A stretch of DNA of 64,000 nt from Methylobacterium sp. FF17 (lineage in GTDB: Bacteria; Pseudomonadota; Alphaproteobacteria; Rhizobiales; Beijerinckiaceae): contig NZ_CP107532.1 of NCBI RefSeq assembly GCF_025813715.1, positions 124,001-188,000 on the forward strand, read 5' to 3'. The translations under genes were made by a program, and so were the position numbers. The notes under the pieces are model-generated. The model saw only the letters and a program-made list of their open reading frames with translations, made no database searches and was not told the origin of the DNA. Positions 34,761 to 40,982 of the stretch are shown here, piece by piece (positions within the stretch are counted from its first letter, which is position 1; each line of letters opens with the position of its first letter).

Positions 34761-34787
34761 TGTCACATCGGACAGCACTGCGTCGTC
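34761..34787 (+). promoter_or_regulatory. ECF41-type promoter of the membrane-protein/sigma operon
   Basis: TGTCACA at 34761-34767 and CGTC at 34784-34787 are separated by 16 bases and lie 33 bp before ATG 34821. This equals the known ECF41 promoter pattern and is repeated at 37391-37365 and 38673-38647. It implies that the sigma factor activates its own operon. Confidence 0.75.
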
Positions 34788-34820
34788 ACTCACGTGAACC
34801 AATCATGTGGGGAGAGCTCG

Positions 34821-35219
34821 ATGACCAAAGCCATTCCGGTACTCGCCGGTATCCTCGGCGCGGGACTGGCCGGAAACGGCATCTTCATGCTCACCGCGCC
34901 CGAGGCATGGTATTTCGCGGTGCCAGGCGTGACGACGACAGGCCCATTCAATCAGCACTTCCTACGCGATATCGGCCTGATTTTCGTGCTGATCGGGTCG
35001 GGGTTCGCGTACGGCGCGTTCCGACCCGGACCGCGCTCGCTGCTCTGGAGCATGGGTGCGATCTGGCTCTCGGGCCATGCGCTCTTCCATTTTTGGGAGG
35101 TTGTGGTGGGCATTTGCGCGCCGGAGGTTCTACCCCGCGACTTCCCCGCGGTAACACTTCCTGCGCTTGTTGCTGTCGCCCTCAGCGTCTGGTCGTTCCG
35201 CCATGCCGACCATCGATGA
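34821..35219 (+). CDS. four-helix membrane protein in the ECF41 operon
   Basis: The 132-aa protein starts at ATG 34821 after GGGGAGAG. Four hydrophobic segments are visible (about residues 4-24, 45-66, 75-95, 108-126). The first contains GAGLAGNGIFMLTAPEAWYFAVPG. I do not recognise a named family with certainty; it resembles small DoxX/DUF4345-like membrane proteins. Its end overlaps the start of the ECF41 sigma gene by 17 bp, and the shared ECF41 promoter upstream shows it is part of that regulon, perhaps in the place of the redox genes usually found beside ECF41. Confidence 0.75.
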   Translation: MTKAIPVLAGILGAGLAGNGIFMLTAPEAWYFAVPGVTTTGPFNQHFLRDIGLIFVLIGSGFAYGAFRPGPRSLLWSMGAIWLSGHALFHFWEVVVGICAPEVLPRDFPAVTLPALVAVALSVWSFRHADHR

Positions 35220-36102
35220 TCCGACCCGCGTGTTCGAGGAGGAGCGGGCGCGGCTCGTCCGCCTCGCCTACCGCATGCTCGGGTCCCTCGGCGAAGCCGA
35301 GGATGTCGTACAGGACGCCTGGCTGCGCTGGCGGCACGTCGACCATCCTGGGGTCGCCTCGCCCGGCGCCTTCCTGTCACGGACGGTGACGCGGCTTTGC
35401 CTTGACGTCATGAAGTCCGCTCGGGTCCGTCGTGAGACCTATCTTGGAACCTGGCTGCCCGAGCCCGTTGCCCTGGTTGCGGACGAAGCCCCCGGCGATG
35501 ACCTCACGTTCACGCTGATGCTCGCCCTGGAGAGGCTCTCGCCACTGGAGCGGGCCGCGTTCCTCCTGCACGACGTCTTTGCGGTCCCGCTTGATGAGAT
35601 TGCCGAGACGCTTCGGCGAGAGCCCCCGGCGGTCCGTCAACTCGCGGCGAGAGCCAGGAAGCACGTGCAAGCCGCACGTCCCCGCTTCCCCGTCGAGAGG
35701 GAAGAGGGCGCGCGCATCGCCAAGGCCTTCTTCGAGGCATCTACGACGGGCGACGTCGCAGCGCTGCGCAGCATGCTCGCCGATGCCGTCGTGGTGCACT
35801 CCGACGGAGGCGGAAAGGTGCTCGCTTTCCCGCGGCCGATCATCGGAATCGACAAGGTCACGCGCATGTTCGAGGGGGTCGTGCGCAAGTCGTGGATCCA
35901 GCATGCCCGGAAGCTGCGGGACCTCTGGATCGATGGCCTGCCCGGCTACCTCAGCATGGAGCCGGGCGGGATGCTTCAGACCGTCGCCCTGGATATCCAG
36001 GGCGGTATGATCGTCGGCATCTACTTTATCCGCAACCCGGACAAGCTCCAGCGAATGGCGCTGTCGTTCGGAGGGGCGGCGGGAGCGCCGACCCCTCACT
36101 GA
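35203..36102 (+). CDS. ECF41-group RNA polymerase sigma factor with SnoaL-like C-terminal domain
   Basis: The 299-aa protein has sigma region 2 (about residues 12-75, RLAYRMLGSLGEAEDVVQDAWLRW), region 4 (about 110-160, LSPLERAAFLLHDVFAVPLDEIAETL), and a SnoaL/NTF2-like C-terminal domain of about 125 residues. The two signatures of ECF41 are present: a DGGGKV version of the DGGG(K/R) motif near residue 205 and NPDKL near the C-terminus. In this group the C-terminal domain takes over the role of an anti-sigma factor. I chose ATG 35203, where the sequence MPTIDDPTRVFEEERARL begins. Known ECF41 loci also carry oxidoreductase or epimerase genes, here the SDR at 36559. Confidence 0.93.
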   Translation: MPTIDDPTRVFEEERARLVRLAYRMLGSLGEAEDVVQDAWLRWRHVDHPGVASPGAFLSRTVTRLCLDVMKSARVRRETYLGTWLPEPVALVADEAPGDDLTFTLMLALERLSPLERAAFLLHDVFAVPLDEIAETLRREPPAVRQLAARARKHVQAARPRFPVEREEGARIAKAFFEASTTGDVAALRSMLADAVVVHSDGGGKVLAFPRPIIGIDKVTRMFEGVVRKSWIQHARKLRDLWIDGLPGYLSMEPGGMLQTVALDIQGGMIVGIYFIRNPDKLQRMALSFGGAAGAPTPH

Positions 36103-36105
36103 GCC

Positions 36106-36546
36106 TCAACGGCGGGCGATTGCCAGCTCCCTTCGGCAGGCCGTCGAGAACGCGCAGAGCGGATCGAGGTCGCTGGCGTGGCGGATGTCGGCGAAGGCGG
36201 CGAGATCCTTGTTCGGGGCGAAGTAGGTCTCGCCGATGCACTGCATGACTCGCTCGGCTTGCTAGAGCGTCTCCGGCTCTCCGAAGAGCCGAATCTTATT
36301 CACGATGGCATAGAGGTTCACCAGCTTGGCCGGGTCGTCGAGTTCGTGCCGGAAGGCATCGCCGAACAAGGTCGACGCCTCCCTGATGAACTCGCCATAG
36401 AGCGCTTCCCGCCGCGCCCGGTCCTGCACCAGGAGGGTCGCGCGCTCCTGGCTGTGTTGCGTCAGCCAAGTGGTCGCGAAAGAGGCCATCGCGCCGATGG
36501 CCGAACCAGCCAGCGCAGACAGCGCCGGAAAATAGGCTGCATCCAT
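36106..36546 (-). pseudogene. membrane-anchored hypothetical protein interrupted by an amber stop
   Basis: A 94-codon frame (MDAAYFPALSALAGSAIGAMASFATTWLTQH, one membrane helix then a helical cytosolic part) ends at TAG 36264-36262. The same frame continues for 51 more sense codons (QAERVMQCIGETYFAPNKDL to ELAIARR) to TGA 36108-36106. The joined product has the size and layout of a widespread alphaproteobacterial family of about 145 aa with an N-terminal helix and a YxAPNK motif, so a single C/T change has split it. Readthrough is possible but unsupported. Function unknown. It is 12 bp from the SDR gene and on the same strand. Confidence 0.75.
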
Positions 36547-36558
36547 CGGCGGGGGGCC

Positions 36559-37317
36559 TCAGGCCGTGCGCTTCGGCTGTGCCGCCAGCCAGTCGCCGTA
36601 GCGCCGCTGCGAGAGCCACGCGTCACCGGCGGGCGTCAGCCAGGGGCCGCCGAGGACCACCCCGAAATACGGTGCGGTGTCGTCCGCGCGGACGTCGTGC
36701 GTCTCGCCGAGGCCCTGAAAATGACGCTTCACCAACTCGACCATCGGCAGCCGCTCGGGCCCGGCGATCTCGACCATGCCGTTTCGCGGTGGCGCCAGCG
36801 CGGCCTCGGCGACCTTCGCGGCCACGTCGGCCGACGCGATGGGCTGGATCGACGCGGAGGTCACGCGCGCGACGCCATCGACGAGCGCGGCTCCCGCGAT
36901 GGCGGCGACGAACTCGAAGAACTGGGTGGCGCGGACGAGCGTCCAGGGCACACCCGCCGAGGCGATCAACTCCTCCTGAGCAAGCTTGGCGCGGAAGTAG
37001 CCGCTTTCGAGCAGGAGCTCGGTGCCGACGACCGAGAGCGCGACGTGGTGGGAGACGCCGGCATCCTTCTCGGCGGCGGCGAGGTTCCGTCCGGCGCGGA
37101 CGAAGAAGTCCATTGCCGCCTCGTCGGCGAACGATGGCGAGTTGGCGACGTCGACCACCACAGTGGCGCCCTTCAACGCTTCCGCGAGGCCTTCGCCCGT
37201 GACGGCGTTGACGCCGGTGTTCGGCGAGGCCGCGAGAACCTCGTGGCTGGCGGCTTTCAGGGTGGTGACAACCTGAGAGCCTATCAGCCCCGTGCCGCCG
37301 ATGACGACGATCTTCAT
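36559..37317 (-). CDS. NmrA-like NAD(P)-binding SDR oxidoreductase, ECF41 target
   Basis: The 252-aa protein starts MKIVVIGGTGLIGSQVV, an atypical-SDR Rossmann fold with GGTGLIG (residues 7-13); GGAG precedes ATG 37317. The middle HHVALSVVGTELLLESGYFRAKLAQEELI and VPWTLVRATQFFEFVA are typical of NmrA-like proteins that reduce or sense with NADPH, and no Ser-Tyr-Lys triad of classical SDRs is seen. An ECF41-type promoter sits 48 bp upstream, so it is a direct target of the sigma factor at 35203. Its substrate is unknown; a role in redox or quinone stress is suggested by its relatives. Confidence 0.9.
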   Translation of the reverse strand: MKIVVIGGTGLIGSQVVTTLKAASHEVLAASPNTGVNAVTGEGLAEALKGATVVVDVANSPSFADEAAMDFFVRAGRNLAAAEKDAGVSHHVALSVVGTELLLESGYFRAKLAQEELIASAGVPWTLVRATQFFEFVAAIAGAALVDGVARVTSASIQPIASADVAAKVAEAALAPPRNGMVEIAGPERLPMVELVKRHFQGLGETHDVRADDTAPYFGVVLGGPWLTPAGDAWLSQRRYGDWLAAQPKRTA

Positions 37318-37364
37318 GTGACGCTCCACTTCAAGTCCGGTCCCAGCGGGACGGTCAGAGTGAT

Positions 37365-37391
37365 GACGAGGAGCGCCCCTGTAATGTGACA
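37365..37391 (-). promoter_or_regulatory. ECF41-type promoter of the SDR gene
   Basis: On the minus strand TGTCACA (37391-37385), then 16 bases, then CGTC (37368-37365), 48 bp before the ATG at 37317. The elements and spacing are identical to those at 34761 and 38673. Confidence 0.75.
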
Positions 37392-37465
37392 TAGACAGTG
37401 AGAATCGATGCTTTCGACTTCGACCCCGGCGAGGGCATGATATTCCGGGATGCTCGGTCTGGGGG

Positions 37466-37485
37466 CGGCTCTGAGAGAAGAGCCG
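37466..37485. other. 7-bp stem-loop between MBL and SDR genes
   Basis: CGGCTCT-gagaga-AGAGCCG is a perfect stem-loop in the 313-bp spacer 37318-37630, 145 bp beyond the stop of the hydrolase gene at 37631. On the minus strand it could terminate hydrolase transcription, though no T run follows. The rest of the spacer carries only the SDR promoter. Confidence 0.4.
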
Positions 37486-37630
37486 TTCCGGGACGAACCT
37501 GCCGGAACAGCGCGCGACCTCACGGAAGCGCATCCTCGGAATAAATTTCGGGGATGAACAAGTTTCGATGGGTCATCCGTGTACCAGTCCCAGTCGAATG
37601 GAGGACCCGGCCGGGACGAACCCCATGCAG

Positions 37631-38578
37631 TCAGTAGTCCCAGAAAACGGGAACCCATCGAAAAGCGTCGCCATCAACCGCGACCCGGCCGACCGACGGG
37701 AACGGCAGGTGCGTCGCGATCAACTGCTCGCCGGTCGCCGCCAATTCTCTCAGGAGTCGAACGCGAACACGCTCTGCCTCCTCGGGATCGTGTTCGAAGC
37801 CGTTGTGCCAGTCGGGATGCTCAAACCCGACCGAGAACACGGCGTCACCAGCGAAGGTCAGCCGGTCGCTGCCGGATGCCAAGCGTACCACGCTGTGTCC
37901 CGGGGTGTGGCCGCCGGTACGATGGACGACCACCCCTGGCGCGACCTCGTTCTCCTCTTCGAAGAGATAAATTTGACTGCGGTACTCTCGCGTGAACCGC
38001 TGGGCTGCTGCTCGAAGTGCCTCAGGGAAACCCTCTGGCATGTTAACATGGGTAAAATCGGGCGCTTCCCAGAACTTGACCTCAGCAGCCGCCACGTGGA
38101 TCCGCAGGTCCGAGCGCAGTCGCTCTTTCACTCCATCGACGAGGAGCCCCCCGACATGGTCCATGTGCATGTGGGTTAGAACCACGTCCGTCACGGACCC
38201 TAGGTCAATGCCTACGGCGTCCAATCGCCTGACCAGTTGCCCAGCCCGCGGCAGGTTCAGGTTTGGATCAAATCCCAGCCCGGCGTCTATGAGAATAGTC
38301 TGGCCTGCGCTGCGAACCACGACCACGTTCAACGACCAGTCGAACGCGTCCTGCGGCAGGAACATGTCGTTCAGCCAGACAGCCCTTACCGCCGGTTCGA
38401 CGTTGTGTCCCAGCATCTTGGTCGGGAGCGGCAGCACCCCATCGCTGACGACCAGTACGTCAATGTCGCCGATCCGTAACGCGTAGCGCGAGGACACCAA
38501 CTCCTCGCCCCCCGCACGCGCAGAGCCAGCACATCCCCGATCCGGCTCCCAAGTGTCGGCATGTGCTGCACCAGTCAT
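37631..38578 (-). CDS. metallo-beta-lactamase-fold hydrolase, ECF41 target
   Basis: The protein of about 315 aa has the metal-binding motif THMHMDHVGG (about residue 150), a later His in GGHTPGHS, and Asp in FAGDAVFSVGFEHPDW. AAAGGG lies six bases before the second ATG (38578); the ATG at 38584 is an alternative and the longer frame to 38752 overlaps the promoter. Members hydrolyse lactones, esters or thioesters; the AidC/AHL-lactonase-like group is closest in layout but I cannot fix a substrate. An ECF41-type promoter lies about 69 bp upstream, placing it in the sigma factor's regulon. Confidence 0.88.
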   Translation of the reverse strand: MTGAAHADTWEPDRGCAGSARAGGEELVSSRYALRIGDIDVLVVSDGVLPLPTKMLGHNVEPAVRAVWLNDMFLPQDAFDWSLNVVVVRSAGQTILIDAGLGFDPNLNLPRAGQLVRRLDAVGIDLGSVTDVVLTHMHMDHVGGLLVDGVKERLRSDLRIHVAAAEVKFWEAPDFTHVNMPEGFPEALRAAAQRFTREYRSQIYLFEEENEVAPGVVVHRTGGHTPGHSVVRLASGSDRLTFAGDAVFSVGFEHPDWHNGFEHDPEEAERVRVRLLRELAATGEQLIATHLPFPSVGRVAVDGDAFRWVPVFWDY

Positions 38579-38646
38579 CGTCATCCCTTTCGTGGGACGC
38601 GCGTGCGTCTGTTCCGGCAATCGCGAAACGCGCGTCATGCCACTAG

Positions 38647-38673
38647 GACGAAACTGGGTCAGCAGATGTGACA
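38647..38673 (-). promoter_or_regulatory. ECF41-type promoter of the MBL-fold hydrolase gene
   Basis: On the minus strand TGTCACA (38673-38667), 16 bases, then CGTC (38650-38647), reading towards the hydrolase gene. It is the third identical copy in 4 kb. Confidence 0.75.
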
Positions 38674-39046: not shown

Positions 39047-39979
39047 TCAGCCGCCCTTGGCGAACGCGTGGACGGTGGCCGGAACGCCCACCTCGAAGGG
39101 TGTTGGTTCAAAGCCGAAGCGGCGGGTGAACTTACTACCGTCGACGACATAGGGGCGGTCCCAGGTAAATCCGACGTCGGCCACTTCCCAGGCGAATCGG
39201 TAGAAGAGGCCCAGCGGCCGTAGCAGCGCATAGGGGACTGCCCAGATCCTAAGCCGCTTGTTCAGGGCCGACGCGCCCAGCGTCAGGAGAGCTCGCGGAG
39301 TCCGCGTCGGCGCGCACGGCATATTCCACGCCTGACCAAAATCCTCGTCACTGGTATCTAGGAGCAGCACCGCCGCACGAGCGATGTCGGGCACATAGGC
39401 AAAATCGTGCGGCGTGTTGGCCGGAACCAAGAGCTGTGCTGGCTTGCCCTTCGCCAGTTCGCCGAACGCGTTCGCACCGAGATGGGAGACGGCGACGCCG
39501 GGTCCATAGAAGTCGGAGCAGCGCAGGGCCGCGACATGCACGCGCTCACGCGCCGCCTGCCAGATCCGTGTGACCTCGGCCAGAATGACCGGCTTCTCGG
39601 CCGTGGTTGCCAGCGGCATGTCCTCGGTGCGCGACACCGTCTGCGGCCCGAGCTGGTAGAGATTGTCGATGAACACCAGCCGCGCGCCTGCCCTCGCACA
39701 GCCCTCGACCAAGTTGTGCATCGTCTGGGGCCAGACCCGCCGCCATAGCCGCGCGTCGTAGGCGAAGCCGACTGCAAGCACCGCCTGTGCCGAGCCAGCC
39801 AACGCGCGGCGCACGTCTCCGGCGTCCAGCACGTCGCAGACCAAGTGCTCGACGTTCGGCGGCAGGGCAGAGGGCCGCGTGCGCGTGGCAATCCGCACGC
39901 GATCGCCACGCGCCGTCAGTTGCTCGACGATCGGCCGTCCCACCGCGCCATATCCAAACACCGTGATCTGCTGCATCAT
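39047..39979 (-). CDS. NAD(P)-dependent epimerase/dehydratase (atypical SDR)
   Basis: The 310-aa protein starts MMQQITVFGYGAVGRPIVEQL after AGGACA; the longer frame to 40324 is antisense to the divergent regulator. The Rossmann motif GYGAVG, the AVLAVGFAYDARLW segment, FIDNLYQLGP and PANTPHDFAYVPDIARAAVLLL are typical of extended/atypical SDRs annotated as NAD-dependent epimerases. The substrate is unknown. It is divergent from the LysR gene at 40071 with a 91-bp spacer containing a good palindrome, so it is probably that regulator's target. Confidence 0.87.
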   Translation of the reverse strand: MMQQITVFGYGAVGRPIVEQLTARGDRVRIATRTRPSALPPNVEHLVCDVLDAGDVRRALAGSAQAVLAVGFAYDARLWRRVWPQTMHNLVEGCARAGARLVFIDNLYQLGPQTVSRTEDMPLATTAEKPVILAEVTRIWQAARERVHVAALRCSDFYGPGVAVSHLGANAFGELAKGKPAQLLVPANTPHDFAYVPDIARAAVLLLDTSDEDFGQAWNMPCAPTRTPRALLTLGASALNKRLRIWAVPYALLRPLGLFYRFAWEVADVGFTWDRPYVVDGSKFTRRFGFEPTPFEVGVPATVHAFAKGG

Positions 39980-40043
39980 TGTCCTGTCCCTTGCTTCTGA
40001 GGGGGGAGAATGGACGCCCATTTCACAACCGAAAATTGCCGAA

Positions 40044-40066
40044 TTCCGTAGCTCTGCTATACGGAA
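40044..40066. promoter_or_regulatory. candidate LysR operator (7-bp inverted repeat)
   Basis: TTCCGTA (40044-40050) and TACGGAA (40060-40066) form a perfect inverted repeat around nine bases. It lies immediately before the LysR start (40071) and 65 bp from the divergent epimerase start (39979), the usual place for autoregulation and target control. Confidence 0.6.
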
Positions 40067-40070
40067 AGGA

Positions 40071-40982
40071 ATGAGTACCGATCCTGACTGGGCCCTGTAC
40101 CGCACCCTCCTCTCCGTTCTCGACGAAGGGTCTTTGTCTGCCGCTGCGCGGGCACTGGGCCTCACCCAGCCCACGGTCGCACGGCATGTCGATGCCCTTG
40201 AGGCCGCGCTGGGCGCCGATCTGTTCGTGCGATCGCAGCGCGGGCTGGAACCGACCGATCTCGCCTTGTCGGTGCGCCCACACGCAAGAATCATGGCCAC
40301 CACCGCGGCTGCCTTGTTGCGCACAGCAAGCGGCGGGGATGGCGCGGTCAGCGGAATCGTCCGGATTACGGCTAGCGACGTCGTCGGCGTCGAGCACCTG
40401 CCCCCAGTTCTGACCCAGCTGCGACGTGCTCATCCAGGGCTGGTGATTGAACTGTCACTGTCGGATCGGGTCAGCGATCTGCTCGCACGGGAGGCGGACA
40501 TAGCTATCCGCATGACCGAGCCGACCCAGAGCGCGCTGCTGGCGCGCCGCCTGCCATCGGTCGAACTCGGCTTACACGCGCATCGCGATTATTTGGCGGA
40601 CCGCGGCATGCCCGACACCGCAGACGATCTCAGTGGGCATGACCTGATCGGCTACGACACCCGGACGCCGGCGCTTCGGACCATGGCGGCGCGCCTGCCG
40701 TGGCTCGACTGGCGCGGTTTTGCGCTGCGTACGGACAGCAATCTCGCCCAACTCGCCGCTATTCGAGCAGGATTTGGCATCGGCATGTGCCAAGTCGTGG
40801 TCGCCCGCCGCGAACCAGTGCTGACCCGCGTTCTGCCAGACATCACCTTGCCGCTTCCGCTTTGGATCGTGATGCACGAGGACCTCAAGACGAACACGCG
40901 CTACCGGGTGGTATTTAACGCCTTGGCACACGGCCTTGGCACCTCAACCGATCCAATCAACACAAATGGCACCGTTACTTGA
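40071..40982 (+). CDS. LysR-family transcriptional regulator
   Basis: The 303-aa protein starts at ATG 40071 preceded by GGAAAGGA. It shows the N-terminal winged helix (about residues 6-64, YRTLLSVLDEGSLSAAARALGLTQPTVARHVDALE) and an effector domain (about 88-290) that most resembles the subgroup with the READIAIRMTEP motif. It is divergently coupled to the epimerase at 39047. The effector is unknown. Confidence 0.92.
   Translation: MSTDPDWALYRTLLSVLDEGSLSAAARALGLTQPTVARHVDALEAALGADLFVRSQRGLEPTDLALSVRPHARIMATTAAALLRTASGGDGAVSGIVRITASDVVGVEHLPPVLTQLRRAHPGLVIELSLSDRVSDLLAREADIAIRMTEPTQSALLARRLPSVELGLHAHRDYLADRGMPDTADDLSGHDLIGYDTRTPALRTMAARLPWLDWRGFALRTDSNLAQLAAIRAGFGIGMCQVVVARREPVLTRVLPDITLPLPLWIVMHEDLKTNTRYRVVFNALAHGLGTSTDPINTNGTVT

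Follow-up and report, generated by a model that had tools for sequence, protein, structure and literature searches.

We analysed a stretch of 64,000 nucleotides (nt) from Methylobacterium sp. FF17 (contig NZ_CP107532.1, positions 124,001 to 188,000), referred to below as the window, and in particular a locus of 3.9 kb that contains a gene for an extracytoplasmic function (ECF) sigma factor of the group ECF41. This locus is very probably a real ECF41 regulon of three units, each preceded by its own exact copy of the promoter TGTCACA-N16-CGTC. We hold with considerable confidence that the sigma factor, restrained by the SnoaL-like domain at its C-terminus, would switch on the three units at once. 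Precisely, it would activate an operon for a membrane protein and the sigma factor itself, with positive feedback; an NmrA-like short-chain dehydrogenase/reductase (SDR), followed in relatives by a second small gene; and a metallo-beta-lactamase (MBL)-fold hydrolase of the lactonase/organophosphatase branch. The sites, the gene families, their conservation and the association of the MBL promoter with a sigma gene are read directly from the DNA, and we infer that the window's sigma factor drives all three promoters. The SnoaL-like domain would bind a small molecule and the SDR and the MBL-fold protein may act on the same compound or on its products, and together they would perhaps form a module that is induced by, and removes, a reactive compound resembling a lactone, an ester or a quinone.

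The standing view of ECF41, a widespread sigma group, is that of one adjacent target. Comparison of the present locus with related bacteria suggests instead a sigma factor in charge of several detoxification-like genes that can be swapped for one another, not the usual single gene. The lactonase-like enzyme, the SDR and the membrane protein, which bears conserved His and Asp residues, are concrete candidates for the chemistry to which ECF41 responds. Since one target gene can stand in for another behind the same promoter, the locus also illustrates a way in which small sigma regulons may be built up and altered.

Promoter sites in the window and in the genome

The three copies of TGTCACA-N16-CGTC lie at 34761..34787 on the forward strand and at 37365..37391 and 38647..38673 on the reverse strand, with the coordinates and strands given in an earlier note on this DNA. 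The gap that separates CGTC from the ATG is 33 nt at the membrane-protein gene, 47 nt at the SDR gene and 62 nt at the MBL gene, and the placement and orientation toward three gene units that the same note had proposed were therefore confirmed. Its further statement that the window holds no other such site was also correct: there are three exact matches where 0.05 are expected, and none of 100 shuffles reached three. A genome-wide search with strand and distance to starts returned, at N16, the window's three sites as the sole exact matches in 5.99 Mb.

When the spacer was allowed to range over N14-18, the whole genome gave five matches, namely the window's three and two N15 sites elsewhere. 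Both of the latter, which are without the T before CGTC, were rejected as extra targets; the same-strand open reading frame (ORF) listed for the first overlaps the site itself, and no same-strand ORF of at least 130 amino acids (aa) follows the second within 1.5 kb downstream. With one mismatch at N16 there were 35 places genome-wide (one of them upstream of a second ECF41 gene) against 30 for a reversed control, so that only exact matches are informative. Composition alone predicts about 2.3 exact N16 sites in a genome of such size, and the number of exact sites is therefore unremarkable. The improbable part is that all three are inside 3.9 kb, each facing a gene start; for three random positions to fall within 3.9 kb the chance is about 1e-6.

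The sites have the form of the ECF41 target promoter, TGTCACA-N16(+/-1)-CGTC. In the genus sample described below a T precedes CGTC in 56/56 exact sites, though it was not part of the query, and the element is thus better written TGTCACA-N15/16-TCGTC, a form that the window's three sites fit.

The sigma factor and the genes of the three units

The sigma gene (35203..36102, forward strand, ATG at 35203) encodes 299 aa that match the SigJ subfamily model NCBIfam NF007214 over their full length (358.3 bits, cut-off 271, residues 8-286). Its best solved relative is SigJ 5xe7 (E 1e-44), in an alignment that runs through the C-terminal extension, the roughly 145 residues that follow region 4. The protein also carries DGGGKV and NPDKL, which we take to be conserved motifs of the ECF41 group. 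Between regions 2 and 4 the WLPEP linker motif given for the group by Wecke 2012 (PMC3426412) is present as TWLPEPV. Taken together, the subfamily model, the linker and the solved relative bear out the assignment to ECF41. We recognised no anti-sigma gene beside the sigma gene; the gene that overlaps it encodes a membrane protein with no assigned function.

This membrane protein (34821..35219, forward strand, ATG at 34821, 132 aa) is encoded in an overlap of 17 nt with the sigma gene, and the two hits likewise overlap in, for example, the relatives L008 and L013, which makes translational coupling probable. The hydropathy plot shows four hydrophobic segments, the third and fourth close together, in agreement with the four-helix protein that had been described. 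No Pfam family scored above its cut-off. HlyIII, DUF7471 and the other Pfam matches of six scanned relatives were all below their cut-offs, the labels DUF4345 or YjeT/DUF2065 carried by some relatives were not borne out by Pfam scans, and the matches of the protein's profile in the PDB were designed beta-propellers, with no stretch passing alone and none credible. An alignment of 48 sequences, several of them partial (the window's own, 31 picked by hand from the best 120 of 2524 matches, 15 from the class level and one named-locus relative), has invariant G36, G41, H46, D50, H86 and H90, hence the motifs H-x3-D and H-x3-H. Among 20 class-level loci of the membrane gene, the window's locus excluded, an ECF41-like sigma gene (35-53% identity) is within the 1.5 kb flank in 11, and in 9/20 an exact site is just upstream of the membrane gene. 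The family is tied to ECF41 beyond the genus. We advance tentatively, as a rather unlikely idea, that this ECF41 branch has here the partner it seemed to lack, on the input or the output side: a new membrane family of four segments whose invariant H-x3-D/H-x3-H residues, located within or next to the hydrophobic segments, would hold a metal or haem and which, made together with the sigma factor, might sense or process a membrane-soluble compound and thereby set the ligand of the SnoaL-like domain, while the SDR and the MBL-fold protein would clear the compound.

The SDR gene (36559..37317, reverse strand, 252 aa) encodes an NmrA-like, NAD(P)-binding protein with matches above cut-off to NAD_binding_10 (PF13460), NmrA (PF05368) and Epimerase (PF01370). 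Just downstream of it is a short ORF of 94 aa (36262..36546, reverse strand), which an in-frame TAG truncates in comparison with the gene of about 146 aa found in relatives, so that the second unit may have lost its second gene here.

The MBL gene (37631..38584, reverse strand) encodes 317 aa from ATG 38584, with ATG 38578 also possible, and scores 85.6 bits against PF00753 (Lactamase_B, cut-off 22.7). Its HxHxDH and later H, D and H, the metal ligands of the MBL superfamily, align with those of 7y7u and 4le6; metal binding and hydrolase activity are predicted. The closest solved relatives, 7y7u, 4le6, 4zo2 and 1p9e, are lactonase- and methyl-parathion-hydrolase-like enzymes. In fold and metal-ligand pattern the protein is like methyl parathion hydrolase and the acyl-homoserine lactone (AHL) lactonases AidB and AidC. 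Membership in AidB itself was rejected, since the protein is outside the equivalog cut-off of NF047979 (121.2 bits, cut-off 360). As regards gene starts, the likely ones are internal to the longest frames, at ATG 34821 for the membrane protein, 35203 for the sigma factor, 37317 for the SDR and 38584 (or 38578) for the MBL-fold protein.

Conservation of the sites and alternative explanations

We examined 99 genomes of the genus, drawn from a larger group. An ortholog of the window's sigma factor, with 78% or more identity, is present in 20/99 genomes (in G051 in three pieces), and an exact site (N16/N17) precedes the SDR gene in all 20. The spacer N16 that the earlier note gave holds for the three sites of the window; the SDR promoter of the 19 other orthologs has N17, which makes the window's N16 the exception. 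Of the 20 genomes, 19 yielded the membrane gene, in 17 of them with an exact N16 site. As for the MBL gene, called at E <= 1e-60, it occurs in 19/99 genomes, each time with an exact site upstream. The sigma ortholog is present in 16 of the 19, the ECF41 near the MBL gene of G022 and G055 is less closely related (59-61%), and in G025 the MBL gene has an in-frame stop and is near a contig end, the best ECF41 being a 65% one elsewhere. The sites are therefore conserved in relatives while their surroundings have diverged, the mean pairwise identity around them being 0.56-0.63 in the spacers and 0.50-0.64 in the flanks.

Exact sites were also counted in whole genomes, in this case allowing N16 or N17. 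Genus genomes with an ECF41 gene (n=50, E < 1e-30) have a mean of 3.58 exact sites against 0.42 for the reversed control, and those without (n=49, of which 11 have weaker sigma matches, E 1e-9 to 1e-3) have 0.90 against 0.80; the two groups differ with p = 6e-11, a value to be read with the shared ancestry of the genomes in mind, as they are not independent.

At the level of the order we considered 297 genomes, of which 28 carry the MBL gene at E <= 1e-60, the window's genome and G033 included. The other 26 genomes gave 28 loci (L158-L185), two genomes contributing two loci each and two weaker copies being excluded. The motif is present in 3/28, and the same three alone have the membrane and sigma genes beside the MBL gene. 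At the remaining 25 there is neither motif nor sigma match within 1.5 kb, nor, for the 15 of them examined over 8.5-10.7 kb, anywhere in that span; their best upstream matches have 2-4 mismatches, the same as shuffles. An ECF41-like gene (E <= 1e-40) is present in 15/26 of these genomes, in 12 of which it is not beside the MBL gene, and those 12 have no MBL site. The mere presence of an ECF41 factor is thus insufficient, and the site follows linkage to a sigma gene of this kind. The position of the MBL gene itself varies while the site is kept: directly upstream of the SDR gene, about 3 kb further off, or divergent from the membrane gene. In a quick tree of 47 MBL proteins (19 from the genus, 28 from the order) the motif-bearing genes fall in several well-supported groups. 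By parsimony the motif label has to change three times, of which the branches with good support require just one, and a single recruitment of the MBL gene is thus conceivable.

Some observations weigh against a three-unit regulon under this sigma factor. Two orthologs of the membrane gene have no exact site in the sequence examined, one reading TGTCATA and one being cut by a contig end, and the 20th genome with the sigma ortholog retains only a remnant of that gene, most of it being lost (L012). Four of the 20 genomes with the sigma ortholog (G014, G029, G031, G084) have no MBL match at E <= 1e-60, hence the MBL gene is not essential to the system. On the sigma factor the Pfam model SnoaL_2 scores 20.9 bits, below its cut-off of 27 bits, which leaves the C-terminal SnoaL-like domain named in the earlier note a putative one, and the idea of a shared substrate for the SDR and the MBL-fold protein draws on their gene families. 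The genome also has a second ECF41 factor (C1:1551542), 54% identical to the window's, with TGTCACA-N16-TGTC upstream of its neighbour gene (L088, G000:C1:1548500-1555500), and, as far as sequence goes, either factor may serve a given promoter. It is conceivable on these grounds, although we think it unlikely, that the sites are partly served by this second factor, in a regulon that is shared or cross-wired. In fact, its system has a different -10 element (TGTC), and across the order the MBL site tracks the adjoining sigma gene and is missing from the 12 genomes with ECF41 elsewhere. Apart from this question, the neighbour gene at L088 is, judged by eye, a flavodoxin-like ORF.

A quite improbable alternative is that of a classical ECF41 factor with one true target, in which the response would be confined to the membrane-sigma operon (or to the SDR gene) and the other sites would be inherited and silent. 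It has precedents in Wecke 2012 (PMC3426412), with single targets in two species and three look-alike promoters that were not activated, and in the single identified target of S. meliloti RpoE9 (PMC6180224). However, those look-alike promoters, as described there, were not exact consensus matches, whereas here each of the three genes retains its exact site in 17 to 20 genomes of the genus with diverged spacers, and the MBL site is missing from the 25 order-level MBL loci with no sigma gene beside them. To mere chance or hitch-hiking, in which a motif with some two expected copies per genome would have clustered by luck and been kept since the genomes are close, we give practically no credence: the expectation of 2.3 sites per genome would allow for it, but the clustering within 3.9 kb, the conservation footprint, which is far above the flanks, and the contrast between genus genomes with and without ECF41 led us to reject a chance occurrence of the sites. 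A three-unit ECF41 regulon remains by far the reading that we prefer.

Known ECF41 systems and exchange of putative target genes

The window's system resembles those of Ecf41Bli, Ecf41Rsp, SigJ of Mycobacterium tuberculosis and RpoE9 in sigma architecture, WLPEP linker and long C-terminal extension, and it shares with known ECF41 systems the apparent lack of a recognised adjoining anti-sigma gene, the TGTCACA-N16-CGTC promoter and an NmrA/epimerase-type neighbour. In contrast to them, it has not one unit but three, each behind a separate promoter, its overlapping partner is a membrane protein and not a carboxymuconolactone decarboxylase (CMD), oxidoreductase or epimerase, and an MBL-fold hydrolase is among the putative targets. 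Recognition of this promoter by the group, the control of sigma activity by the extension, and the CMD, oxidoreductase or epimerase neighbours are all described in Wecke 2012 (PMC3426412), together with the general rule that an ECF41 factor controls a single gene or operon, in accordance with the earlier note. This rule is a generalisation and not a definition, and the window, with conserved sites at three apparent units, would depart from it; a three-unit regulon would thus be an extension of the known arrangement, as had been claimed. It would not be the first departure. Hypothetical genes with the motif are already depicted in the same paper, which also reports four cupin genes that presumably share an operon with ECF41 (PMC3426412), and the Azospirillum ECF41 factor RpoE10 is cited as controlling lateral flagella (PMC8999054, PMC12826043), so that the extension is one of degree and content only; for S. 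meliloti RpoE9, one target is identified (PMC6180224). Our literature search found no paper joining the terms extracytoplasmic function, SnoaL-like and metallo-beta-lactamase, and, among the papers listed, no ECF41 study in Methylobacterium, and a 2021 reclassification or an Azospirillum ECF41 paper may already note part of the arrangement.

We also compared named loci, considering 80 of the 549 found by the sigma protein and counting sites at N15-N17; the nearest by sigma protein are from Methylobacterium (92%). In the window's clade (L008-L019, several of which lie on contigs already included in the genus sample) three sites are within the stretch examined in 10/12, the third site of L011 preceding a CMD gene. 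None of the other 68 loci has three sites, 13 have two, 46 have one and 9 have none, and 52 of these 68 exceed 12.6 kb in length. The long ORF that comes first behind an exact site (185 sites, with overlapping loci counted repeatedly and the sigma gene standing for the membrane gene where the longer frame was preferred) belongs mainly to the clusters of the SDR, the CMD, the sigma factor, the MBL-fold protein and the membrane protein; the tally also includes a cluster of cupins and several artefacts of frame choice. In related ECF41 loci, genes for a CMD, a cupin, an alpha/beta-hydrolase or a class III cyclase follow the site. For instance, L210, from another ECF41 branch in the genus, has a CMD gene plus SDR-cupin-sigma, L187 and L188 have SDR-membrane-sigma with a divergent class III cyclase gene and an MBL gene, L187 has one exact site before an alpha/beta-hydrolase gene, and L189 has an inexact site at the operon itself.

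Clusters of MBL and SDR genes also exist in the order without ECF41. Their MBL proteins are about 72-84% identical to the window's, often near an NmrA-like SDR, cupin, CMD or alpha/beta-hydrolase gene; unlike the window, they have no exact ECF41 site and no ECF41 match in the stretch examined. The SDR-membrane-MBL module seems to exist under other control, as at L192 (G558:C1:799000-809000), a stretch with no ECF41 match and no motif. These comparisons suggest that the set of units is modular and that a gene under the promoter can change its place, disappear or give way to another.

Some minor observations concern the same loci. In L192 the SDR, membrane-protein and MBL genes stand next to each other on the same strand, with an alpha/beta-hydrolase-like gene after them, and a LysR-type gene, judged by eye, is near several of the MBL/SDR clusters without ECF41. 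In the window itself, an NAD-dependent epimerase-like gene is divergent from a LysR-type regulator gene at 39047-40982. The island L186-L187 (G051:C40:106000-132000) holds three ECF41 genes, one of them in pieces, and eight exact sites. In L187, L188 and L189 (G051, G022 and G055, respectively) an ECF41-type site stands on the class III adenylate/guanylate cyclase gene divergent to SDR-membrane-sigma, the cyclase domain having been scanned in L187 only, and a link from ECF41 to cyclic nucleotides through this gene is possible.

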